Shown here piece by piece: positions 2,477 through 53,312 of a stretch of 64,000 nt of DNA. The translations under genes and the position numbers were made by a program. The stretch is from Leeia oryzae DSM 17879 (lineage in GTDB: Bacteria; Pseudomonadota; Gammaproteobacteria; Burkholderiales; Leeiaceae): NCBI RefSeq assembly GCF_000376945.1, contig NZ_AQXU01000021.1, positions 62,001-126,000 on the forward strand, written 5' to 3'. The first letter of the stretch is position 1. Every line of letters starts with the position of its first letter. A model generated the notes under the pieces. It was not told where the DNA came from. It made no database searches and worked only from the letters and a program-made list of their open reading frames with translations.

Positions 2477-3770
2477 TGATATGCTCCGATAGTTCGGGCA
2501 GACGAAGTTGGCCGGAAATTAGGCGGGGGAGTAGTGTGTCACGCAGGGTGGCGAGGGTTTGGGCTTGCGTTCGATTGGCAATAATCTTTTCATAGAGAGG
2601 CCGACACAAATCCTCATACGCTTCCAGCACAGGGAATGTTGGGCAGATAAGCTGAATTTGCTTCAGGTGCATTGGCCCAAAATTCTTTTGTACGCTTCCA
2701 GATGCCATAGACTCAAGCTTGTAAAGGAATTCTCCACCGTTCAGATATTGGTAAAGAAACGAGAACACTGTTCGTCCTGTCACGGGCCGGAAGCGAATGA
2801 CCGATGTGTTCAACATCAAAGGAAGGTGCTCCTCCCGTACAATCGCAGACCGGCCAAGCGTTCCTGATGTGGATACAACCACATCCCATGGAGCCAAGTG
2901 AAAGTGAGCGTATTTCCCGTTGGCTTCTTCATTAGAAATTCGGTTAGCCGTTTCAATCGTCAAGTCACCGTCTTGGATGCATCTAATATTGATGAATCGA
3001 GTGCCTTCATCAGAGTTTGTGTACTGCCAGTTTCGTATTCCTGGCCCTTCTTTGAAATCCATCACATCACTCAACGGCTCCATACTCCACCCGCCCGGCA
3101 CTGGCCCCTGGGGAGTGTCGGAGAATGTAGACGGGAACAGGGCGGCGGTGGCTTCGTCCATGCCTTCGGGGGCGCGGCCTTCCATTTTGGCGCGGACGGG
3201 GTCGAAATCGACAAACCAGGATTTGAACAGGGCTTGGGCGATGGCTTCCAGGGTGGCATTGGTTTCGCGCAGGAGGGTGATGCGGTCGTCGAGGGAGCCA
3301 ATTAATTCTGCTACTTCTGCTTCTTGCAATTCACCAAGTCGTGGAATTTGAAGTGCATTTATGCACTTCAAACTTAAAGTTTTTTGAGTGCTGCCAACAG
3401 CACTTCCATCAATTTGATAGCGAAGTTGGGCTGAATTTAATGCTGCATACAAGTATCTAGCATTGATTGAGTGCGGAATAATTGCTGCTGTATTTTGCCC
3501 AAGGCAAAATACAGTGTTGATGACACGAGCAGTGATTCCATATGTTCCAACGCGAGTGATAATAATATCACCCTGCTTAGGAGTATAGCGGCGTGAGAAC
3601 TCATTAAAGGTGTGTTCGTCAACTTTCAAGCACCCCTGAAGTTGGAGCTCGCCGTACTTGACATCAGTGACGCGAACCATGGGATAACCTTGGTCAGTGT
3701 AACTAGGGGTCTTATGCAACGAATCAACTACATCAGCGATATCAGCAAGCACTGATTGTTCAGAACTCAT
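2469..3770 (-). CDS. hsdS: Type I restriction-modification specificity subunit HsdS
   Basis: A 433-aa protein with the two-repeat layout of HsdS. The first target-recognition domain spans about residues 1-150 and is followed by a conserved helix ([18 protein letters not shown]). The second recognition domain spans about 225-385 and is followed by a second helix containing [20 protein letters not shown]. The [16 protein letters not shown] segment between them is characteristic. It sets the DNA sequence recognised by the HsdM methyltransferase and HsdR. Its start overlaps the end of hsdM by 11 bp. The recognition sequence cannot be predicted from the residues. Confidence 0.93.
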
Positions 3771-5343
3771 ACCCCAGCCCCCCCAACTTCTGGCGAATCA
3801 GTGCATCGAGTTCCGCACCCTTGGCCATCTGCTCGCCCAGCTTTTCGGTAAGCGTCTGCATCTTGTCGGCAAAGGCTTCGTCGTCGTCTTCGACTTCTTC
3901 GGCGCCAACGTAACGGCCCGGTGTTAGCACGTGGCCATGCTGGGCAATCTCTGCCAGCGTGACGCTGCGGCAAAAACCGGGGATGTCGGTGTAAGTGCTG
4001 ACCCCCTCGCTGCCTTCCTCTTGGTTGGCCGCCACCGGTTCGCCACGCCAGGCGGCGACGGTTTGGGCGATGCGTTCGATGGTGTCGTCGGTCAGTTCGG
4101 CCTGTACGCGGCTAATCATGCTGCCTTGTTTACGGGCGTCGATGAACAGCACTTCGCCTTTACGGGTGGTTTTCTGTTTGGCAAGGAACCACAGGCAGGC
4201 GGGAATCTGGGTGTTGAAGAATAACTGGCCGGGTAGCGCAATCATCACTTCCACCATGTCGGCATCGACCATGGCGGCGCGGATAGTACCTTCGTTGTTC
4301 TGGCTACTGCTCATGCTGCCGTTGGCTAGCACGATACCGGCGCGGCCATTCGGACGCAGGTGGTAGAGCATGTGTTGAAGCCACGCGTAGTTGGCATTGC
4401 CTTGTGGCGGGGTGCCATACACCCAACGCGGGTCTCCTTCCAGACTACCGTGCCACCAGTCGCTAATATTGAACGGTGGGTTGGCGAGGACAAAGTCGGC
4501 CCGCAGGTCTGGGTGCTGGTTGCGAGTGAAGGTGTCGCCCGGTTCGCGGCCGAGGTTATAGTCGATGCCGCGAATGGCCAGGTTCATGGCGGCCAGTCGC
4601 CAAGTGGTCGGGTTGGATTCCTGACCATAAATGGACACATCGCCAAGCTTGCCGCCATGGGATTCGATGAACTTCTCGCTTTGTACAAACATACCGCCCG
4701 AACCGCAGCAGGGGTCGTACACTTTGCCATGGTGCGGGGCGAGCACGGCTACCAAGGTCTTAACGATAGAGGCGGGCGTATAGAACTGGCCGCCCTTTTT
4801 GCCTTCGGCGCTGGCAAACTGGCCGAGGAAATACTCGTATACTTGGCCGAGTACATCACGCGCCTGGCTGGCTTCTTCACCAAAACCGATGGTGGAAATC
4901 ATGTCCACCAATTCACCCAGTTTGCCATCCGGTAACTGAGCGCGGGCATAGCGTTTGTCCAGAATGCCTTTTAGCTTCGGGTTTTCGCCCTCGATGCCAG
5001 ACAGGGCATCGTCAATTCGTTTGCCGATGTCGGTTTGCTTGGCGGCAGCGCGCAGATTTTCCCAGCGCGCACTTTCTGGCACCCAGAAGACATTCACTTC
5101 TTTGTAATAGTCTCGGTCTTCCAGCTCTTCCGCCAGCATCTCGTTATCGCACTCGTGCAAGAAGTAGTCGTCGGCTTCATCGGCAAAGCGCTTTTTTAGC
5201 TCGGTCTGGCGGGCGGCGAAGGTGTCAGAGATATATTTGAGGAAGATAAGCCCTAGTACCAGGTGCTTGTATTCGGCGGCGTCCATATTGGCGCGTAATT
5301 TATCGGCTGTCGCCCAGAGTGTCTTTTTAATATCATCAAGCAT
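3760..5343 (-). CDS. hsdM: Type I restriction-modification DNA methyltransferase HsdM
   Basis: The protein is 527 aa counted from the ATG at 5341-5343 ([10 protein letters not shown]), the usual N-terminus of this HsdM group; the frame stays open 22 codons further upstream, but that stretch is not family-like. The N-terminal helical domain holds [21 protein letters not shown]-binding motif I is DPCCGSGGM near residues 210-218 and the adenine-methylation motif NPPF lies near 288-291. It methylates adenine in the HsdS-defined site and joins HsdS in the M2S core. It is first in the operon. No hsdR is present in the window. Confidence 0.95.
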
Positions 5344-16217: not shown

Positions 16218-16922
16218 TCATTCATCATTAGGTTCGATTTCATTCGCTTCACCAGTAAGCACAGTGAGCTTTGTTCGCATGTCCGCTAAATGGGAAGTTG
16301 CGAGAGTTGCAAATATCTCTAGCTTCTGAATTTTGTTCTGCAATATTTCAATGGCATGTTGTGTAACGTCAGAGGAATAGTCGAGGCCACCATCCACGAA
16401 GTCAACAATACGAACTTCGAGCGTCACATCCGCTTCAGCATCGATAGCGCTCTGAATCCAAGACTTCGACTCTTCCGAAGCATTCTCAGCAGCCGTGGCC
16501 AAAAAGTGCTGTACCAAAACCCGCGCCGCATCGTCGAGTTTCACGGCAAAGTCGAGCATAGTCTCGATATCATCTTCGACTTCAACACCTGCAGGCGGCT
16601 CCGGAATAAAGCGAAATCGTGGACCGTTGCTGGCATCAAGTGTGTCGAGCGTCCGTAGGAGTGGTTCTAACTTCTCAAGGGGACGAAGTCGAGGAGGAAG
16701 GTTGTACCTCCGCTCCCACAGCCGAAGGACCAATTCCGCACAGGAGTTCTGTGCCACAATTTTGTCCTCAGGATGCGCATTTTCGGCATCGCGGATACGC
16801 TCAGCAAGCACGTGCGCCATCCACTGAGCAAGCTCGTCGTCTCCAAGCTTCAGCTGAGCGACAAGTCGCTTGCCGAATTCAATCACTGCTCTTGAGCGTT
16901 CTAGCAATTCCATCTTCTTCAA
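16218..16922 (-). CDS. Accessory protein of the Cap4/STAND operon
   Basis: A 234-aa, acidic, strongly helical protein with no recognised domain, signal peptide or membrane segment. Its start overlaps the end of the giant NTPase gene by 44 bp in another frame, a large overlap that implies obligate co-translation. The N-terminal 110 residues (containing DDELAQWMAHVLAERIRDAE and AELVLRLWERRYNLPP) look like a helical adaptor, and the C-terminus resembles a coiled coil. Some Avs systems have a small partner gene; a regulatory or folding role is inferred from the overlap only. Confidence 0.65.
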   Translation of the reverse strand: MKKMELLERSRAVIEFGKRLVAQLKLGDDELAQWMAHVLAERIRDAENAHPEDKIVAQNSCAELVLRLWERRYNLPPRLRPLEKLEPLLRTLDTLDASNGPRFRFIPEPPAGVEVEDDIETMLDFAVKLDDAARVLVQHFLATAAENASEESKSWIQSAIDAEADVTLEVRIVDFVDGGLDYSSDVTQHAIEILQNKIQKLEIFATLATSHLADMRTKLTVLTGEANEIEPNDE

Positions 16923-19900
16923 TTAAGTAGTAGCGAATGTATGGTGGTATATTCAAACTATATTCATCAATATCAGAATCATGATTCGGGAGCCGCCGAT
17001 ACAGGCTGAGACCAACGACAAGGTAGTGCTCTGGATTAGCTGCAATAAGCTCTTTCAAAAACACAATATTAGCACTCAAGCGAGTACCAGGTGTCATTAC
17101 CTTCTCACTGCCGTAGCCGATTAACTGGGTCCATGTCTCACTTCGCAAGAGTGCGCCGCTTTTAGCCTCCCAAATACGACCATCATCGACGGAAGTCAGA
17201 CCCATCGCCGAGATTGTTGAATCGTTCGGTGCTTCGCTAGGAACACGTACATGTTCAGCCCAGGGGTCGTATTCGTCAATTCCGTAGGAGTCCTCTCGGT
17301 CAGATATCCAACGACGGAGCATGAACTGACTCCTGTGGGGCACCTCCCATGCCAGTTCAGGGACTTCACCATTAGAAATCTGGTCCTCATCTTCGTCTAA
17401 AGGCACTTGGTCTTCTCCAAGTTGAAAGAAGTAGCCTCGGGGGCTCGATGAAGTTTGCGCCGCACAGAGAAACGCTCCCGCAGAAACCTTTGGTACTAAC
17501 ACACTGGACACAGAAATATTCTCTAAGAACCCATTCAAACCACTTTCCCAGTCCCCAGCCACAACCTGTAATCCTTCATCGGTCTCCATAAGACTATCAA
17601 GATAGTCAGTGGTAACCTGCCAGCGCCAATCTTTATCGCCATATTTCTCCGGTACAGGGGGAACCCTAGTAAGTTGAGGGTCGCGCCTGTCCGCAGCCCA
17701 TTTGCCGTCCTTGCGTATAAGAATTCGATGTTTAATCCACTCGTCAAATTCATTTGCGCTGCTGTAGGTCGCCTTGCCGACTGGGTGGGTCTTAAGGAGC
17801 CTAGCGGCCACTATCATCATTGCGTGATAAGCACAGTAAGCGCGAAGGTCTTCAACTCGCGGCATAGTTCCTTGCGAGTGACCGGTCCGCTCGTGTCTAA
17901 AAACGCCATTCGTATAGCGAGCGTCGTGTTCATGCTTGGTAGTTAGGCATCCCATGCGTTCACTGATGACCTGGATGGCGCGCTTTGTAATTCCACTTTG
18001 TGATATACCGAAGACTAGACCAAGAGAGTTAAACCAATATGGGCCAATGTCATTACTAAAGTAGTATTTATCTACCACCTCACCAGTCGAGTCTACGGAT
18101 ACCACTGGTTCCATCTCTGGCGCCCTATAGGAAGCATACTCGAGGAGCGGAAGCTCACTTGCGTTGATTTTCTCCGGAGAGACACGCGTGTTCGATTCAC
18201 CCAAGAGCTCAGAAAGTTCGTGCAAGGAGCAGGCTGCGAAATGACGAATGAGCACGTGTTCTTCCTTGGCTGACGCCAAGAGATATTCGTTAAAGAGGAA
18301 CACCGCGTCACGATGCTCGGCCGCACACCGAGCAAGCGCAATATTGAGCCATAAGCGGGAGTGCCATTCGTAGAAAACAAAACGCTTATCTACGAAAGCG
18401 CCCGGTGCACTGACGACTGCCACTTTCGCGAGCGCCGTCAAAACAGGAACCCAACCAAGCTCGATAGTTGCTCGAACAGCGTGTGCAGCCTGCCAGCGCA
18501 CAGAAGTACTTGGTGAGCCTAGAACGGCCCAAAGGTAACCAGCAAGTGCGTCCTCGCATCCACCTTGGGTCTTCATGACATCGCTCCATGGACCATCCCC
18601 ATCTTCGGGGCGTAGGTCCATCTCAAGGAGCGAGAGCCCAAATTGCAGCGCGTCGTCCGCCTCATCACTCGTCAAACGAATGGACAACGACTCCAGCATC
18701 TGAAAGAGCTCTCCGGCGTCAAGCGTTGTGACCTTAACAAGGAAACCTTGAAGCGTGGCCTCCACAATCTGTTCATCGTTAACAATGCCTTCGCTTATAA
18801 GCCGCCGGTAAGGAAACAAGCCGCCCCAACTCCGTCTCAAGGCCAGTTCAGGGCTACTTTGACATACGGCGAGCGTTACCTCTGCCATCGCTTTACGTAA
18901 TGCAACCGGTTTCGTACTGTACTCTCCAAGAACTTCGAAGAGATGCCTGAGTTGATAGTTCCCAAATTCTGGCCACTGAGCAACCGCTTGACAGAACTCG
19001 GCGGCACTTCCCAAGCCACATCTGTGCAGTGCTTCTCGGTAGAACTCATCAGTTTTATAAGGCGGGTCGAACGTTTTCAGGAGCAGGTAGGCGGTACGCA
19101 GCTCCACGGAGTTTGTGAAGTCAATCTCTTTGAATAAAACATCCCAGTCTGGGACGTTACGCTTCTCCGTAGCCTCCGGCATGTACTGCCTTACAGAATT
19201 ACCACCCTCGCGCTTGGATTGCCTCGCCACAGAGAGAAGCCTGTCGATGTCAGAAGCTATGAAGTTGCAAGAGCGTGCCAACTCTGAAACTCGCTCAATT
19301 TCGTTCTCCGACAGCGAACTGACCCTTAAGTACCGGTAACCAACATCGAAAATTTTACGCTTAATGTCCCAATCAGACTCTTGCTCAAGAGCTTTCGCAA
19401 GGTCCTCGTCGCGTGCCCACTCGTCGCCAATCGGGCACAACGCAATTGGCGCGATGTGCGGCATTAAGCCGCGCTTCACGAGGCGGTCGATTGCGATTTT
19501 CAAAAGTCTGTCTGCATTACCGAAATTGCGGTCCCTCCAGCGACTGAGAATGGCTATCGTCGAGGTTGGACACAAACTCAATAATCCATCAATTGTGTGT
19601 CCCCAGTCGAAGTGCTTGTCTCTCTCAACATATTCATATGCCAGCTCTGCTCCTCGGGCCAGTCTATAGGCGGACTCCGGTCGTGCTGAGCTGTTCTTAC
19701 CGCTTGCTTCGGCCAAACAAAGGAGAGCGCCCCAGCGGTCCAAGTTCTCCTGCCCGATGCGATTTGACATCTCCACCGCTCGCTCGAAATAGGAGCGGGC
19801 CTCTGCAATACTAGCCGTGAAAATAGCACGCGCGAGGGTTTGGTAAGACTCGACTCTGTATTCAGCATGCTCACGATGTTTCTCTATGACTTCGTAGGCC

Positions 19901-22900
19901 TTTACAGACACTTCGAGAGCAAGGCTCTGAAGGTGCTTGGTGCGGGCAGCCAAGCGACAGACAGCCGCCATGACAGTGGGTCCAAAACCATTTGCATTTT
20001 CTTCAAACCACTTCCGGAATGTGGACATTAATGCGGCGTCTGAATTCGATGAATCACGCATAGCCCGTAACCATTCCAATGCAGCAACTTGGTTTAAGTT
20101 GATGTCATTGTTATAGTATTTGGAGCTAGCGGCATTCGTCGCATTGATTGCTTCCTGGACTGCCGCGCTGAACTCTGCCGGAGTCTTGCCACAGGCAATC
20201 TCCGCGCTCAGGCGAAACCAAGCCAAGATACCCCCCGTTGACCTTTCAAATGTGTCGACTATGGAGCTACTTCTATAGTGGCTCTGCTTCTTCTCCAGCT
20301 CCTCTCGGATTTCCTTTGGGGCCAAGTCAATAAGTACGAGTTGCCTGCCCAACAACTCAGCCTCAAGCGTGTATGCTCTCAGCAGCACAGACCTGTCCGT
20401 GTCGTAGCGCTCTCCCAGCTCTCTGGGTGGATGCTCTGGTAGGTAGCGACGTATGACGCTTGCCCAAGTCAAGTCATCACGAGGCAACACTCGTAGTGCT
20501 TGTAGAACAGAGGATGTGACACCACTGAGCACGCTCCAATTTATGGGCGGCTCATCCGGGTCTTGTAGTTGAATTCGGTGGTTACTCAGTCGGCGCATGA
20601 GCGACTCCACCGGTTTGGCCGGCAAAGTGTGACCACCTTCGCACGCTTCGACTGCCAGTCCCAGCATTAGCCAGATATCTCGCACGCCGTGTTCCGCCAA
20701 CAGGTCAAGAAGGTCATATCGTCCCAGGTCCACAAGGCGACGTGCCAAGATGCTGCCGACGACCATCGAATTAGACCTTGGCCTCCACCCAGTGAGAAAT
20801 CTGACGGCATCCTGCGGTCCTTCCGCTAGCAACTTGGCCATCGCCAGTTCGACCATATCACTAGTTTCAACGTGCTCATTCGCTTTCTCACGCTCCACAT
20901 GCGGCATGCGCGCCCACGAATACAACCAATCTATCGCCATCCTCAAGCGACATCGCGCATCGGCAAGGAATTCTTCACGCCCCGCCAGCAAGCCGGCTTC
21001 ATAGGCGTGATGAGCGCCTGTCCAATTTCCCCCAAATGCGCGGCGAGACACCAGTTCATCGATACGGTCTGGAGAAAGAAGTACAGACGCGATGTCGGTG
21101 TTCCTCTGTATCAGCACATTCTGGCGTTCGACACCGGCGAGTTCACCTGCGACCTTGAGCGTGAGCTTTGCCGCCGATGCGTAGCGCTTCTCTTGCAGGC
21201 AAGCTTTTAGCGCGAAGGTCAGACGCTGCACCTCTACATCACGACGTTCGAGCGGATTCGCCGTCGGTAGGCCTTCAGAAGATAAGGCCAGGTCGACCAG
21301 TTCATCCATTTGCCTCGCTTCCAGCAGCAGTTGAGGAATCGTTGATGAAACATAGGAGCTAGAGGTGCTAAGAGGCTTCAATCGGTCCAAGAACGTTGCC
21401 AGTTTTTCCTTGTCTGGCTGAAAGTTCTGGCGGAACCAGGTCTCAGAAGGCTCATCTAGGAAGTGAAGGCTGCTACCTTTGACCAGCAGCGGTCGTCCCA
21501 AGTCAAAGGCAAAGCTTCTTACCGCGCTTTCAGTAGTTCCTGAAATCTCAGCAAGCACCTCGATTGGAACGAGCGGACGAAGAACGGCTAAGCCTTGGCA
21601 GATTAGGTCAATCTGCTCTGCTTCGACATGGCCTACTCGAAACTTCAGCTTTTCAACTGCACGCGACAACTGTTCGGAGATTGCCAGCTCAACTGTAGAG
21701 GGTGAAGGTCCTAGCGCCTTCAGCATTTCTTCTAATGGCAACTTGCGGCTCAGTGCTAGCGCCTGAACTCGCGGGTTTGAACTACTTAGAAAGCCGAAAT
21801 CGGCAACGTCACGTTCAGTCGCATCCGGATAGGATTTCTTGAGGTGCCTAGCTGTCTCCATAAGGCTGAACGGGCGAACTTCAACGTGCGTCGCGTCGGG
21901 CGGTGCTTGCAGATAGTCTCGTCGATGTGTTCGGCAACTTAAGATAAGTTTGATACCGTCCGGCATCGCTGTACGAATGAGGTCGGGCACGAAGGCGGCA
22001 TCATCGAACTCCTTGGCTGCCATTACGGCGTTGTCCGCGGCGTCTACAATCAAATATAAATTGGCTACGGGAGTTTTAGCCCTGAGTAGACTGATAGCCT
22101 GGGTCAACCTCGCCACAAACGCGCGCATGTACTGTTTGCTATCCGTCCCGCGAACTGGAATTAAGGGATAGCACAGCCCTTGCGCAGCGAGTTCGTTTGC
22201 TATCTGCGGAAGTGCATCCTTTTGTCGGTGTCGGAAGTGTTGGGCGCTTCTGTACAGCCCGTCGCCAAAGCAGTCGTATAGCACTGCAACGGAACCTTCG
22301 GGGACACTCTTGGATAGTTGCCACATGAGTATGGACTTTCCAACGCCACCCTCCGCATGCAAGACAACTGGGTGAGTAGCAGACTCCAGAATCGTGCGAA
22401 GTTCTCGTTCCTGCTCCCGAGGAAATGCACCATCGGCAGGCTCGGCAATCAGACACTCAGCAGGCCATAGGTCTGCTTCATCAGTCCTTAGTGCACGCAG
22501 CACATCAAAGCGTCGGATGGACGGGTTAGAAGCATACTCAGAGGTAGCCTTTCTCGTCACCAACTCTTTGAGCTGAAGTGGCGCATCCGTATCAGCCTCA
22601 GCCAGGAATGTTCTAACGTCCTTGAATAGTAAGTTGCGCTGGCTCCAGAGGTCGGGCTCGACACCTTCTACGGAGAAGAGCTTGAAGAAATTTGCAGTCT
22701 CGCTACCTAGCCCCTTCACATACCCAAGCAGTGTCTTCCCGACCGGCGAATGTCTCGCGGTGTTCCCTGCTGCGAGGTCCTCAAGCGTCTCAGTCACCTT
22801 CTGGTCGATGGGACGGTTGGTCGTGAAGGTGAAGCGCAATTTGTCCTTGAGTACGTCCCAGGTGAACTGCTTGCGCAGCTCCATAAATCGTTCAGAGAAT

Positions 22901-23241
22901 CCAGGGAGCGTCTTGTTTAAGCAGCTGGCTGTCCAAGGTTTTTGAGCTTGCAGCGTAGAGTGCTTCAACTGAACATAGTGAACGAGCCGAGCTTCATTCA
23001 GTTCCTCACTGCCGAAGTATAATCCCACATCAATGAGTTCATCACCTTCATTAGCCGAGCCAGGACCTTCAGCGGCCGATGCGCCTTCAATGGAGATGGC
23101 AACAAGGTCACTAGTACCAGGCAAAAGCGAGAGACAGTGCCGCGCAGCCCAGTGATAGTGAAACTGGTCACCATCTCTGCTCGCTCGTACCAAGTCAGAT
23201 TCGGAAGTCGGAGCACCAGCGGAAGTTGTGTTTTGGGTCAT
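16879..23241 (-). CDS. Giant Cap4-like nuclease/STAND NTPase (Avs-like antiphage protein)
   Basis: A 2120-aa protein. Residues ~25-230 form a PD-(D/E)XK nuclease of the DUF4297/Cap4 kind: HYHWAARHCLSLL, then Glu52, Asp71 (ELIDVGLYFG) and the QxK pair in HYVQLKHS (91-93). The NTPase has Walker A HAEGGVGKS (295-303), Walker B LYLIVDAADNA (395-405) and SCRTHR near 435-440. The remaining ~1600 residues are helical repeats, the expected sensor region. Avs proteins bind a phage protein, oligomerise and unleash the nuclease; this layout (Cap4-NTPase-long helical tail) is that of Avs3-like proteins, but the subtype is not proved. The motifs are intact. Confidence 0.85.
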   Translation of the reverse strand: MTQNTTSAGAPTSESDLVRASRDGDQFHYHWAARHCLSLLPGTSDLVAISIEGASAAEGPGSANEGDELIDVGLYFGSEELNEARLVHYVQLKHSTLQAQKPWTASCLNKTLPGFSERFMELRKQFTWDVLKDKLRFTFTTNRPIDQKVTETLEDLAAGNTARHSPVGKTLLGYVKGLGSETANFFKLFSVEGVEPDLWSQRNLLFKDVRTFLAEADTDAPLQLKELVTRKATSEYASNPSIRRFDVLRALRTDEADLWPAECLIAEPADGAFPREQERELRTILESATHPVVLHAEGGVGKSILMWQLSKSVPEGSVAVLYDCFGDGLYRSAQHFRHRQKDALPQIANELAAQGLCYPLIPVRGTDSKQYMRAFVARLTQAISLLRAKTPVANLYLIVDAADNAVMAAKEFDDAAFVPDLIRTAMPDGIKLILSCRTHRRDYLQAPPDATHVEVRPFSLMETARHLKKSYPDATERDVADFGFLSSSNPRVQALALSRKLPLEEMLKALGPSPSTVELAISEQLSRAVEKLKFRVGHVEAEQIDLICQGLAVLRPLVPIEVLAEISGTTESAVRSFAFDLGRPLLVKGSSLHFLDEPSETWFRQNFQPDKEKLATFLDRLKPLSTSSSYVSSTIPQLLLEARQMDELVDLALSSEGLPTANPLERRDVEVQRLTFALKACLQEKRYASAAKLTLKVAGELAGVERQNVLIQRNTDIASVLLSPDRIDELVSRRAFGGNWTGAHHAYEAGLLAGREEFLADARCRLRMAIDWLYSWARMPHVEREKANEHVETSDMVELAMAKLLAEGPQDAVRFLTGWRPRSNSMVVGSILARRLVDLGRYDLLDLLAEHGVRDIWLMLGLAVEACEGGHTLPAKPVESLMRRLSNHRIQLQDPDEPPINWSVLSGVTSSVLQALRVLPRDDLTWASVIRRYLPEHPPRELGERYDTDRSVLLRAYTLEAELLGRQLVLIDLAPKEIREELEKKQSHYRSSSIVDTFERSTGGILAWFRLSAEIACGKTPAEFSAAVQEAINATNAASSKYYNNDINLNQVAALEWLRAMRDSSNSDAALMSTFRKWFEENANGFGPTVMAAVCRLAARTKHLQSLALEVSVKAYEVIEKHREHAEYRVESYQTLARAIFTASIAEARSYFERAVEMSNRIGQENLDRWGALLCLAEASGKNSSARPESAYRLARGAELAYEYVERDKHFDWGHTIDGLLSLCPTSTIAILSRWRDRNFGNADRLLKIAIDRLVKRGLMPHIAPIALCPIGDEWARDEDLAKALEQESDWDIKRKIFDVGYRYLRVSSLSENEIERVSELARSCNFIASDIDRLLSVARQSKREGGNSVRQYMPEATEKRNVPDWDVLFKEIDFTNSVELRTAYLLLKTFDPPYKTDEFYREALHRCGLGSAAEFCQAVAQWPEFGNYQLRHLFEVLGEYSTKPVALRKAMAEVTLAVCQSSPELALRRSWGGLFPYRRLISEGIVNDEQIVEATLQGFLVKVTTLDAGELFQMLESLSIRLTSDEADDALQFGLSLLEMDLRPEDGDGPWSDVMKTQGGCEDALAGYLWAVLGSPSTSVRWQAAHAVRATIELGWVPVLTALAKVAVVSAPGAFVDKRFVFYEWHSRLWLNIALARCAAEHRDAVFLFNEYLLASAKEEHVLIRHFAACSLHELSELLGESNTRVSPEKINASELPLLEYASYRAPEMEPVVSVDSTGEVVDKYYFSNDIGPYWFNSLGLVFGISQSGITKRAIQVISERMGCLTTKHEHDARYTNGVFRHERTGHSQGTMPRVEDLRAYCAYHAMMIVAARLLKTHPVGKATYSSANEFDEWIKHRILIRKDGKWAADRRDPQLTRVPPVPEKYGDKDWRWQVTTDYLDSLMETDEGLQVVAGDWESGLNGFLENISVSSVLVPKVSAGAFLCAAQTSSSPRGYFFQLGEDQVPLDEDEDQISNGEVPELAWEVPHRSQFMLRRWISDREDSYGIDEYDPWAEHVRVPSEAPNDSTISAMGLTSVDDGRIWEAKSGALLRSETWTQLIGYGSEKVMTPGTRLSANIVFLKELIAANPEHYLVVGLSLYRRLPNHDSDIDEYSLNIPPYIRYYLIEEDGIARTLKSSD

Positions 23242-23574
23242 GAGTATGGAGAGAGATTGCTTTTAGAGAGTCTCGTCAGAGATTCTTTGCTTGACAGCGG
23301 AAGAACTAAAACTTCGAAGAGGTAAATAATGAGTTGTTCTAACTCCAAATATCGCGATAACTTCGATGCACCTCCACACCAAGCCGCTAAGATTGATAGG
23401 CCAACCCATACTTATCTTCAATTTTCCACACTGTCGATACGGATTCGCATTGTGGGCGTGCTAGCCAACATAAAGGCTTTTATACAGTGTATGCTATAGA
23501 CATTATTGATACAAGTACTGAGAAAAAGCGCTTACCCGTCCGAGAATGAACAATAACGCTATGGTAGATAGACT
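23242..23574. other. Leader region of the Avs-like operon, no gene
   Basis: 333 bp between the start of the giant NTPase and the end of the putative structured RNA. It must contain the NTPase promoter unless the RNA transcript reads through. I see no reading frame, no clear operator and no repeat; it is AT-rich near 23,460-23,530. Confidence 0.45.
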
Positions 23575-24692
23575 TGAGAGAAAGACCGGTCCTCGAGAGT
23601 GATTCCCGGTCTTGGGTTGAGAAATAATAACATTGTAAAGTAATTACCAAGTCTCGCTATCTGACCCGCCAAGGTCAGAAGTCGTGTTCCCCACCGCCAA
23701 GCAGAAAACACGGCACATACTACAACAGGCCGCCAGGCCACTCCTCTATTAGAGGACACACATACTTTCCACCGCTGGCAGTTTTCGAGTACCGGTTACC
23801 CGGTTCGCTCCCCCCTTGACTGATTAGGTCTCGAAGTTCACTCAGACTCTACTATCCGCCGCTCCCTCTCTTTTGCCGTCCCAGGAGCCACCCTGGTCAA
23901 ATGGCAGTCAGAGATTCCCACGTTAGTTAACCGTGTCGAAACCACGATTTAGGTATACGGCATTTCAAAGTCTAGGCATCGCATACGCTTACCCGGTTGC
24001 CCGGTTTCAGTCGCCCGATGTTCCATAGCGGCAACTTACCCACCTCGACTCATCATCAACGCATCATCCCATCAGGGGCGTACCCAAGGTTTCTTACTGT
24101 GATAAAGAGGACTCTCACCTCTATTTACTTGCTTAAGCTATCCAGCGACCCGTCCATTACGACGGTGCCAACGAGTCCAGGTTTCCCCTCATCGCCCTAG
24201 TGCCTTTCAGCACTCTCAGCAGCCCACAAGCACAGCATTCGTCACGCCGTTCACTTTCGAACGTCCCGAATGGTGGATTTACACCACTTCACGACTTAAC
24301 AGGGTTTGTGCATGTCGCCATGCTTCCCGTTTCCGTGTCGCCCAACCTCACAACCAACAGATTGGGTCGAACGCAACATGTCTGTTGCTAGCGCCCGTTT
24401 CAGCCGTACCAGCCAGCGTTACCCGGCATACAGCTAAGGCGGTGTTCGAAGGGATGGCGCCCTTCGCTTGTCTTTCGACATATGTGTGATTTGCAGTTGG
24501 CGGCCTGCGCTTTGCGCCCTCAAAGAAGGTGCATAGCGCAGGTCACCGTGCGTGCGAGTCAACCAGCTTTTCACCTGGCTGCTTGCCTTGCAAATCAGTC
24601 TTCCCTCATGTGTGTATAGCGCGGAATTTCTGCATGTTTGCATCGAACGTCGGAACATCATTATGTCCGGCCCTGCCGGACGCTATCACACA
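23575..24692 (-). ncRNA. Candidate large structured non-coding RNA
   Basis: About 1.1 kb with no credible gene on either strand but dense base pairing. On the minus strand at least four stems are capped by GNRA tetraloops: GAAA at 24469-24480, GCGA at 24310-24323, GAAA at 24199-24214 and GUAA at 23791-23804. The plus-strand versions of these loops are not GNRA, which sets the orientation. Further stems include CCUCU/AGAGG (about 23745-23757), CUGACC/GGUCAG and GUCCGGC/GCCGGAC (24665-24681). A final hairpin with AAGACCGG/CCGGUCUU arms (23582-23613) may mark the 3' end. The ends are approximate. It resembles a group II-like intron or another ornate RNA; I found no domain V and no intron-encoded protein. 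Confidence 0.55.
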
Positions 24693-24740
24693 ACAACCAT
24701 GCGCTATACGGGGTATAAAACTTATATTTGGAGCTCTGCC

Positions 24741-25370
24741 ATGCCTGCCTCAACCCCAATTGCACACACAAAAACTGCCGCCCTAGCACGCATCCTTGAT
24801 AGCGTTCCCAAGGGGTACCATCGGTATACCAGCGGCAAAGTAAAAGCAACGAAAGCTGAATCGCTCATCCAAAAATTTCATGCCCTCTATGGTATTGGAT
24901 GTACCCCAATGCAGCGTCTGACCCGAAAAGGCAAAGGCCAAGCAAACGTACTTCTTGCTGTATATTGGCCTGAAGGGGCTGAAATGGTCGATTGGCTGTT
25001 ACTTGCAACAGACGGTAATGGTCTGGAAAAAGAGTCTTTAAGCAAGGCAGAGGACAAGCCTCGGTTGACCTGGCTAGGTTATGAGTTGTTCAGGTATGCG
25101 GCGAAAGGAAAGACCGTATGGACATGGCGTCGCCCCAAACAAGAAATGACAGAACTTTTCAAATATGTCACTTATCAGGCTCGAAACCGGCAATACAACG
25201 CCTTAAAAGAAACATTGGAGCGTATCGCTCGCCAACCCGGGTTTCACGGGGTCAGGACTCAGTCTTGGGCACTTTGCGAGGAAGCTCTTCGATGCGGATA
25301 TGATGGTCAACTTCCCCACCTGTTCTATTTAGAGAAGGTTAGCCATGGTGAAAGATTTGCTCTTGACTAA
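24741..25370 (+). CDS. Unrecognised 209-aa protein divergent from the structured RNA
   Basis: Start chosen at the ATG at 24741, seven bases after GGAG; the frame is open earlier but overlaps RNA-like sequence. The protein is basic, with KGYHRYTSGKVKATKAESLI near the N-terminus, PMQRLTRKGKGQANVLLAVY, WLLLATDGNG in the middle and RLTWLGYELFR then TVWTWRR, and a C-terminal helical part. No known catalytic motif is evident. The basic character and the adjacency to a putative large RNA make RNA or DNA binding a reasonable guess. It is followed by its own terminator, so it is a single-gene unit. Confidence 0.65.
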   Translation: MPASTPIAHTKTAALARILDSVPKGYHRYTSGKVKATKAESLIQKFHALYGIGCTPMQRLTRKGKGQANVLLAVYWPEGAEMVDWLLLATDGNGLEKESLSKAEDKPRLTWLGYELFRYAAKGKTVWTWRRPKQEMTELFKYVTYQARNRQYNALKETLERIARQPGFHGVRTQSWALCEEALRCGYDGQLPHLFYLEKVSHGERFALD

Positions 25371-25497: not shown

Positions 25498-25773
25498 TCA
25501 TGCATTACCAATTTTTCCACGACGAATCTGCTCTGCCTTTGTTGGGCGCCCACGACGGCGAGGGACCTGGTCTACAATAGAGAAATCTATTGGCTTTACC
25601 ACTTCACGTTGAGCTTCAAGCCATTCCTCTACGTCCTGAGCACTGAACCGAAGCAACTTACCTATCTTTGTGCAAACGGGAAGGCTACCCTTGCTACTTA
25701 GACGGTTATAGATGGTCTGTGGGCTAATGTTGAGATATTCAGCCAGTGTCTGGGGGGTGTAGTAATTTGTCAC
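25498..25773 (-). CDS. AlpA/excisionase-type helix-turn-helix regulator
   Basis: A 91-aa protein with a GTG start. The N-terminal YYTPQTLAEYLNISPQTIYN and LLRFSAQDVEEWLEAQ form the winged helix of the MerR/excisionase (HTH_17) family. The C-terminal tail is basic (PRRRGRPTKAEQIRRGK), suggesting AT-hook-like contacts. Such small proteins act as directionality factors or activators of integrase genes. Its place about 290 bp from the attachment site fits a role in excision of the island. Confidence 0.85.
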   Translation of the reverse strand: MTNYYTPQTLAEYLNISPQTIYNRLSSKGSLPVCTKIGKLLRFSAQDVEEWLEAQREVVKPIDFSIVDQVPRRRGRPTKAEQIRRGKIGNA

Positions 25774-26058: not shown

Positions 26059-26117
26059 AAGAGACTCAAAATCTCCCGCCGCGAGGTGTGTCGGTTCGAG
26101 TCCGACCCTGGGCACCA
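26059..26117 (+). other. attR: 3' fragment of a tRNA-Leu (CAA) gene
   Basis: The sequence runs from the anticodon stem-loop (GAGACTCAAAATCTC, anticodon CAA) through the long variable arm typical of tRNA-Leu, the T arm GTCGGTTCGAGTCCGAC, and the acceptor strand CCTGGGC ending in ACCA at 26,117. The matching 5' acceptor strand and D arm are absent upstream, so it is not a functional tRNA. It is the right attachment site, and the native tRNA terminator follows directly. Confidence 0.88.
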
Positions 26118-52820: not shown

Positions 52821-53202
52821 GGAAGTTCGCCAGACAATCGCTGCCAGTCTTTGACTGGGGGAGGAAAGTCCGGGCTCCACAGGGCAGGATGCCGGCTAAC
52901 GGCCGGGCGTCGGAAGGCGACGGAAAGTGCAACAGAGAGCTGAACCGCCGATGGCCTCGCAAGAGGATCAGGTAAGGGTGAAAAGGTGCGGTAAGAGCGC
53001 ACCGCAGCTGTGGCAACACAGTCTGGCAGGGTAAACCCCATCCGGAGCAAGACCAAATAGGCAGACGTTGAGGGGGCCCCCCGAGTCTGCGGGTAGGTTG
53101 CTTGAGCCCGTTAGCAATAACGGGCCTAGAGGAATGATTGTCGGGCCTGTCTGCCGGTAACGGTAGCCAGACCAACAGAACCCGGCTTATCGGCGAACTT
53201 CC
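52821..53202 (+). ncRNA. rnpB: RNase P RNA (class A)
   Basis: About 382 nt. The 5' GGAAGTTCGCC pairs with the 3' GGCGAACTTCC. Conserved cores are GAGGAAAGTCCGGGCTCC near the start, the J-region AGGGTGAAAAGGTGCGG, AGGGTAAACCCC, and the CR-V-like GGGTAGGTTGCTTGAGCC, with the AGAGGAATGATTGTC of the P4 end. It is the catalytic subunit maturing tRNA 5' ends. It stands between a PilZ gene and maf. Confidence 0.96.
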
Positions 53203-53312
53203 AGTTTTCGCCAAGACAGGCACAGCGCCTGTTTTACGTAATACCCAACGGGCGTGACACCTGCTGCCATGCCCTGTCCATTCAACCGTGGCCTTTACCC
53301 GTCCTAGCCTCC

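Follow-up and report, generated by a model that had tools for sequence, protein, structure and literature searches.

The window analysed here, a 64,000-nucleotide stretch of the Leeia oryzae DSM 17879 genome, contains an RNA gene of about 1.0-1.1 kb on the minus strand, divergent from a gene for a 209-amino-acid (aa) protein at 24741-25370 on the plus strand. Both belong to a genome island of approximately 31 kb (G000:C21:56851-88117), whose right part corresponds to window positions 1-26117. The features are as follows.

23582-24692, minus strand: whole structured RNA gene (5′ conserved element, core, 3′ hairpins, terminator-like hairpin), from homology to plasmids and genomes and comparison of 5′ and 3′ flanks; ends approximate
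23814-24451, minus strand: conserved RNA core with a profile of 638 positions, its 29 helices comprising 149 counted pairs (nhmmer profile, RNAalifold, pair counts)
24326-24345, minus strand: highly conserved core motif TTGGGCGACACGGAAACGGG, source of the search pattern (sequence, 67-sequence alignment, pattern search)
24614-24709, minus strand: conserved 5′ element with inverted arms GTATAGCGC (24709-24701) and GCGCTATAC (24622-24614), from flank comparison
23582-23613, minus strand: terminator-like hairpin AAGACCGG...CCGGTCTT, then a T-rich stretch; read in the sequence, similar hairpins standing behind several other copies
24741-25370, plus strand: partner protein P0001, 209 aa, RT/maturase-like predicted fold without the catalytic motif (family HMM, AlphaFold, VIA-align)
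25498-25773, minus strand: excisionase-type HTH protein of the island, near its right end (TIGR01764, 40.5 bits; PF12728, 55 bits)
26061-26117, plus strand: attR, a 57-bp direct repeat of tRNA-Leu(CAA), with its twin at G000:C21:56851-56907 (repeat comparison)

The arms of the 5′ element enclose GTGTGA (from 24691) and GATGTTCC (24659-24652). In 12 flanks from the window's clade, GATGTTCC is found in 11 and TGTGAT in 11, L047 being without both; the sequences of the arms differ among flanks. Whether the element is an RNA stem or a DNA site is undecided. At the opposite end, the terminator-like hairpin has a 16-base loop and, judging from the letters alone, may mark the transcript end together with the T-rich stretch behind it. 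A terminator scan that admitted only loops of 3-8 bases did not report this hairpin, and a promoter scan gave a single weak promoter-like site.

Strand was assigned from GNRA tetraloops. Within 23575-24692, the minus strand has seven stems of at least 4 pairs closed by such a loop, the plus strand not one; in 500 dinucleotide shuffles of the minus strand the mean was 1.1, and none (0/500) reached 7. Folded singly, 981 nt of either strand outperformed each of 20 shuffles (z -4.1 for the minus and -4.9 for the plus strand), so that energy alone cannot assign the strand whereas the GNRA loops do. An earlier, sequence-only reading of this DNA had named four GNRA stems and had seen such stems on the minus strand only. 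All four are there, at the positions it gave, the confinement to one strand is borne out, and the limits that it proposed agree with the terminator-like hairpin. Its remark that no tRNA lies nearby had to be corrected, as 57 of the 85 bases (the 3′ part) of tRNA-Leu(CAA) are repeated at 26061-26117, a fragment on which ARAGORN is silent. As to the remainder of the island, a tyrosine-type integrase was read by eye from the ORFs at its left end, and type I restriction genes, a HipA-like ORF, a UmuDC-like pair and a primase-like ORF were likewise named by eye.

A conserved, covarying RNA without a conserved reading frame

Blastn with the region matched 15 plasmid records from eight genera, Deinococcus included, and 6 of 149 genomes of relatives, the window's own being left out. 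The motif TTGGGCGACRYGGAMACGGG occurs in 77 stretches in a collection holding one genome per species (84,980 species). At E<=1e-3, 101 of 103 loci contain a match to the core profile (nhmmer), and among the 77 pattern loci 73 score >=100 bits; L019 and L084 have no profile hit, L062 and L085 only weak ones. Plasmid searches using homologues as queries returned overlapping sets of 22, 23 and 38 records. In E. coli, the RNA is on 22 plasmid records from 21 of 5426 genomes and, at that sensitivity, on no chromosome. A phage element was considered and rejected: 50,697 phage records gave no blastn match, and IMG/VR viral contigs had none for one exact pattern, the motif TTGGGCGACRYGGAMACGGG. The counts given below for 93 loci exclude repeated genomes and overlapping pieces (L001, L008, L033, L059, L067, L090). 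Two isolated observations concern the distribution. The RNA is on two contigs (L029 and L070) of a single MAG assigned to Oscillospiraceae, a phylum scarcely seen elsewhere in the set, which may be a binning error; and Thiothrix unzii pTunz1 (L017) has two RNA places, with partner-like sequence near the second (NZ_CP072796.1:32697-33165).

Cores from 86 of the 93 loci were aligned; 81 cores were listed for a second alignment, of which 67 remained after thinning by hand. Of the 50 column pairs that covary best in the first alignment (86 sequences), 42 are canonical in >80% of the sequences, against 3.4% of all column pairs. The RNAalifold consensus comprises 29 helices with at least 3 pairs. 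In the second alignment (67 of the same sequences), both sides have changed at 120 of the 149 consensus pairs, 90.7% of the cells are paired and the score is 0.617. Moving the 3′ partners by 1-3 columns lowers these values to 35-43% of cells (about 42% at one column) and 0.09-0.13, and none of 500 shuffles of the 67-sequence alignment reaches any of the five measures. The consensus structure was derived from the same 67 sequences, a bias in its favour; the gap to the controls is, in our judgment, much larger than expected from it. Covariation and the GNRA-stem shuffles together rule out a chance fold.

A frame open across the entire core in the RNA sense is found in 0 of 86 homologous cores, and one in any of the six frames in 3 of 86, which rules out a coding region. 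Nor does any known family fit. Rfam 15, searched over the window, has nothing in the RNA region at gathering level; at E<=10, only one microRNA model (E 6.2) matches within 23300-24800, and 14 homologous loci gave six weak matches at E<=5 (microRNA, frameshift and PhotoRC-I models). The same search found the RNase P class A RNA at window 52822-53205 with 318 bits, which serves as its positive control. No description of the RNA or of the protein was found in the literature, judged by titles and abstract starts in open PubMed Central papers, without bioRxiv; either may be in print elsewhere. Thus the region encodes a real, conserved, covarying RNA without a conserved reading frame, and both RNA and protein are undescribed in the libraries and open literature searched.

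These results support the main claim of the sequence-only reading. It had taken the stretch for a candidate large structured RNA without a gene, to be supported by covarying stems among homologues and refuted by a conserved reading frame; homologues exist, their stems covary and the 86 cores share no frame, so that the test was passed. Of its two options, a divergent intron and an undescribed class, the undescribed class is supported; membership among introns is not, no intron model matching and no RT-active protein lying inside.

Outside the core, GCCA is present in 5′ hairpin loops at 66 of 75 loci, TGGC in 3′ loops at 68 and both at 61; one round of shuffling gave 20, 20 and 7. They are candidates for kissing loops, either inside one molecule or from one molecule to another. 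That mobile elements carry large RNAs is already known. The present one shares with GOLLD, ROOL and OLE its size, an elaborate covarying fold and candidate kissing loops, and with GOLLD and ROOL its carriage by mobile elements. It differs from all three in being on plasmids and an island, not phage, in the conserved protein partner beside it and in matching no Rfam family.

The 209-aa protein family as partner of the RNA

Iterated profile searches placed partner homologues at 75 of the 93 RNA loci. Sixty-eight of these 75 genes are on the opposite strand and begin no more than about 1.3 kb upstream of the core; L005, L009, L023, L065, L069, L089 and L096 are the exceptions. At 13 of the 18 loci without a partner, the retrieved piece extends <920 nt upstream. 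In Polaromonas pPNAP05 (L014) and Thiothrix pTunz1 (L017), the same record has the partner at another place, and L010, L027, L042 and L098 have none despite enough flank. L103, below the 100-bit cut, was tested separately and has a partner at E 2.5e-22. In the reverse search (tblastn with the partner), 23 of 26 plasmids with the partner also carry the RNA; the others (NZ_CP062148, NZ_CP068422 and NZ_CP010417, the last with a shortened partner) have no RNA by the core profile. Among 398 genomes drawn from the phylum, the window's own and one other encode the protein, and in the latter the RNA is beside it. Furthermore, RNA and protein distances are correlated (mirror-tree, r 0.75, n=63), none of 2000 permutations being as high. 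The 209-aa family thus goes with the RNA as its partner, a link that had been surmised from the window alone.

On Acetobacteraceae plasmids, a longer partner homologue of about 388 aa (L110:6189-7355, L111:9648-10814) has no RNA visible to the core profile; a diverged RNA may be present. Six loci (L032, L041, L055, L057, L060, L093) share a gene of about 530 aa in the neighbourhood of the RNA.

The same sequence-only reading had raised a link to an Avs-like operon. Avs3a (2120 aa, 2970 bits, cut-off 2800) and Avs3b (252 bits, cut-off 200) do occupy window 16218-23241 on the same island and form a defence pair of AVAST type 3. However, ORFs >700 aa are in none of the 25 listed ORF clusters around the 93 RNA loci (most flanks <=8 kb; clusters not annotated individually), and an Avs association is not supported by these clusters. 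A NACHT protein is annotated on pPNAP05, far from the RNA.

The partner family is basic (median pI 10.1). Its protein alignments comprise 47 and 44 members, hand-chosen from 49 listed plus P0001. It fits no family in Pfam, NCBIfam, PHROGs or PADLOC, where one or two members out of 47 have matches, all of them weak (best E 0.0035, 0.002, 0.00096 and 0.009), and the best match of the family to PDB sequences has E 0.78. AlphaFold modelled P0001 and a homologue from L041 with pLDDT 95.3 and 95.8, and for both models the top VIA-align matches are the group II intron maturases 8t2s, 8t2r, 6me0 and 8fli, over 167-190 residues, with Z scores of 7.8-8.7 for the first model and 8.6-8.8 for the second (the best, 8.7 and 8.8, span 167-179 residues). 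Other RTs rank after the maturases, with retron and DRT9 RTs among the neighbours of P0001. Prp8 chains match the second model at Z 5.4-7.5 over 195-207 residues and are not listed for the first; absence from the VIA-align lists does not exclude a family. Z scores of 7-8 are typical for models without relatives, so 8.7-8.8 is barely higher, and short helical proteins aligned with the C-terminal (thumb) part reach 8.2-8.5 over 66-80 residues, nearly equal to the maturases. Foldseek gave nothing significant, its best match for one model (E 0.033) being to a group II RT and the leading ones for the second model unrelated; nor did it against viral models. The family is without the RT catalytic motif: among 67 members of at least 190 aa, 5 have DD at the aligned palm hairpin and 4 have [YF]xDD at any position. 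Kinship of the partner to group II maturases, as far as predicted models can tell, is likely but not proven, the evidence being suggestive only.

Plasmid settings and mobility

The plasmids that carry the RNA use several initiator types (RepL, RepM/Rep3, TrfA, RepC) and include very small ones. Of the three genes annotated on pMtBL, the first is the partner. On pHaKG2_3, RepL, the partner and the RNA are accompanied by three further annotated genes, one drawn over the RNA; the 3-kb E. coli plasmid pS19_141-h combines RepL and the RNA with three small hypothetical genes. The larger plasmids pGDIPal5I, pBN5, pEc631_3 and pPO70-4 carry genes for type IV secretion, with a coupling ATPase next to the RNA or the partner, and none of the four has an annotated relaxase (for pPO70-4 this rests on annotation only). 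The order in pGDIPal5I and pBN5 is partner, RNA, coupling ATPase (Pfam-confirmed). On pPO70-4, a homologous ATPase gene (68.7% identity, tblastn) is found behind the RNA; on pEc631_3, an ATPase-like gene adjoins the partner (29.9% identity over 92%, tblastn; no Pfam match). ORF clustering placed T4CP-like or VirB11-like ORFs near 17 of the 93 RNA loci, with no T4SS-type ORF clustered in the fetched flank at the remaining 76. In Pandoraea pPO70-4 (L113:20946-23060), an IS256-type element splits the 5′ part of the RNA core into profile positions 3-56 and 47-635 on its two sides, ten positions being repeated as in target duplication.

In PLSDB mobility typing, all 26 partner plasmids are non-mobilizable, as are 15/15, 22/22, 22/23 and 37/38 RNA plasmids from four overlapping searches, the last two including one unidentified plasmid each that is typed mobilizable. 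By comparison, non-mobilizable plasmids number 817 of 2027 among those with RepM and 137 of 1329 among those that have a homologue of the coupling ATPase of pBN5, a set from which RNA plasmids were not removed. Records from one genus cannot be taken as independent, 10 of the 26 being E. coli plasmids of close similarity, so these counts exaggerate the number of events. The relaxase profiles PF03432, PF08751 and PF03389 found nothing in 19 RNA plasmids; the same holds for PF01076, but its Mob_Pre control was silent. PF03432 found nothing in the window's own genome, and a Pfam scan of 30 proteins of pEc631_3, pBN5 and pGDIPal5I gave no relaxase. The sensitivity of such profiles is low: with PF03135, VirB4 was recovered from only 2 of 19 plasmids, while further ones have it annotated in RefSeq. 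Because annotated VirB4 genes were missed, profile silence on relaxases is weak evidence, and MOB-suite and Pfam may both overlook an unknown relaxase.

RNA and partner are not always on one replicon. E. coli FHI_NMBU_11 has, in the same cell, a 3-kb plasmid with the RNA only and a 34-kb plasmid with RNA plus partner; Novacetimonas C110 has the RNA on pKHC110_1 and the partner on pKHC110_2. A close partner gene was found in only 1 of 7 E. coli genomes with an RNA plasmid of about 3 kb.

Possible functions of the pair

We propose that RNA and partner form a ribonucleoprotein that replaces the relaxase in DNA mobilisation. The idea, for which we see roughly even chances, is an inference made without transfer, transcript or binding data. 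A role in transfer is suggested by the gene neighbourhood, the missing relaxases and the split pairs in one cell. According to this proposal, the RNA of about 1.0-1.1 kb and the basic 209-aa protein would act as one ribonucleoprotein of mobile elements. The partner would be a reduced, catalytically dead RNA-binding RT-fold protein (maturase- or Prp8-like) that folds or holds the RNA; the complex would recognise the element's own DNA and pass it to the type IV secretion system via the coupling ATPase, as a relaxase does in conjugation. Large plasmids would supply RNA and partner together with the apparatus and the coupling protein; islands, that of the window included, and small plasmids would bring RNA and partner or RNA alone and borrow the remainder. 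What the pair has in common with relaxases and MOB modules is its place beside the coupling ATPase on T4SS plasmids and its presence on small plasmids and islands without the apparatus; what sets it apart is that it consists of an RNA and an RT-fold-like protein, with no relaxase domain found by the profiles tried. Prp8 is a catalytically dead RT-fold protein beside structured RNA. The pair would resemble the spliceosome core in this respect and through the Prp8 matches of the second model, but it is bacterial, with a protein of 209 aa, one RNA and no introns.

Alternatively, RNA and protein might serve plasmid maintenance, controlling copy number, incompatibility, segregation or addiction, which we consider unlikely. 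The RNA does lie on small low-copy plasmids such as pMtBL, whose copy number is 1.1-1.34 and which is kept stably when complete while an OriR-only vector is lost, according to the accessible part of one report (PMC6848147); the accessible part of another (PMC10033558) describes transcription of pMtBL on both strands over nearly its full length. However, the portion available of the second report puts the minimal OriR at nt 1918-2759, and the RNA core, at 3111-3814, is outside and hence dispensable for replication. On that published OriR, as far as the excerpt goes, and since the RNA coexists with several Rep types, a replication origin or replication RNA was rejected. The variety of initiators also speaks against maintenance, and the authors credit the stability of pMtBL to ParAB, in the part of PMC6848147 at hand. 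Copies on chromosomal islands, the position beside coupling ATPases and the missing relaxases would remain unexplained.

A divergent group II intron, or another self-mobile ribozyme with a trans-encoded maturase, is quite improbable in our view. The hunch toward introns in the sequence-only reading was sensible given the maturase-like fold that the models predict: the RNA is large and GNRA-rich as in group II intron ribonucleoproteins, intron maturases are the closest match to the fold predicted for the partner, and GTGTGA stands near the RNA 5′ end. Yet no Rfam intron model or domain V matches the window at gathering level, 23300-24800 at E<=10 or 14 loci at E<=5, no exons were seen, and the setting is one of plasmids and islands. 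The partner is transcribed divergently, shorter than an intron maturase and without the RT catalytic motif (palm-hairpin DD in only 5/67 members), no RT-active protein is encoded inside the RNA, and the distances of RNA and partner correlate as for a fixed pair.

Intron chemistry nevertheless bears on the relaxase replacement proposed above. Partial reverse splicing by group II introns leaves the same DNA ends as a relaxase tyrosine does, which raises the idea of a ribozyme relaxase, a long shot to which we give little credence. Held by the dead RT-fold protein, the RNA would attack its own plasmid DNA through an RNA hydroxyl, as in step one of group II reverse splicing, becoming joined to the DNA 5′ phosphate and freeing the DNA 3′ OH; the RNA-tagged strand would then go through the type IV secretion channel and be closed in the recipient by the reverse reaction.

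A defence or counter-defence ribonucleoprotein of mobile elements appears very unlikely. The island of the window does hold Avs3a/Avs3b and type I restriction genes (the latter read by eye), and retron and DRT9 RTs are among the structural neighbours of P0001. Set against this, PADLOC matches are weak (best E 0.009) and concern just one or two members out of 47, no effector-like cluster stands out among the 25 ORF clusters listed (not all annotated), and the phage searches gave no match. Finally, a cage or ring made of RNA alone or of RNA and protein, as in the GOLLD, ROOL and OLE class, and joined through kissing loops, is scarcely credible: GCCA and TGGC loops do occur together at 61 of 75 loci against 7 after shuffling, and kissing loops build the GOLLD and ROOL multimers in the accessible part of PMC12286853, but those loops may pair inside one molecule, Rfam gives no match to GOLLD, ROOL or OLE, phage records give none either, and the RNA has a dedicated protein, none being known for ROOL as far as that part of the source goes.

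A new RNA family of about 1 kb with its own new protein family is already rare, and we know of no precedent for plasmids without a relaxase on which an RNA is accompanied by a dead RT-fold-like protein. The system is compact, and convenient plasmids carry it (pMtBL and the 3-kb and 30-kb plasmids of E. coli). In the accessible part of Guglielmini et al. (PMC3158045), a VirB4 cluster without a relaxase is classed as a putative protein exporter; RNA and partner plasmids with type IV secretion genes are a reason to revisit this rule. If the pair replaces a relaxase, this would explain how some plasmids typed non-mobilizable move. It would represent an RNA-based route to conjugation, perhaps with a natural ribozyme acting on DNA outside introns, and a bacterial parallel of Prp8, in which a dead RT-fold protein works with a structured RNA.
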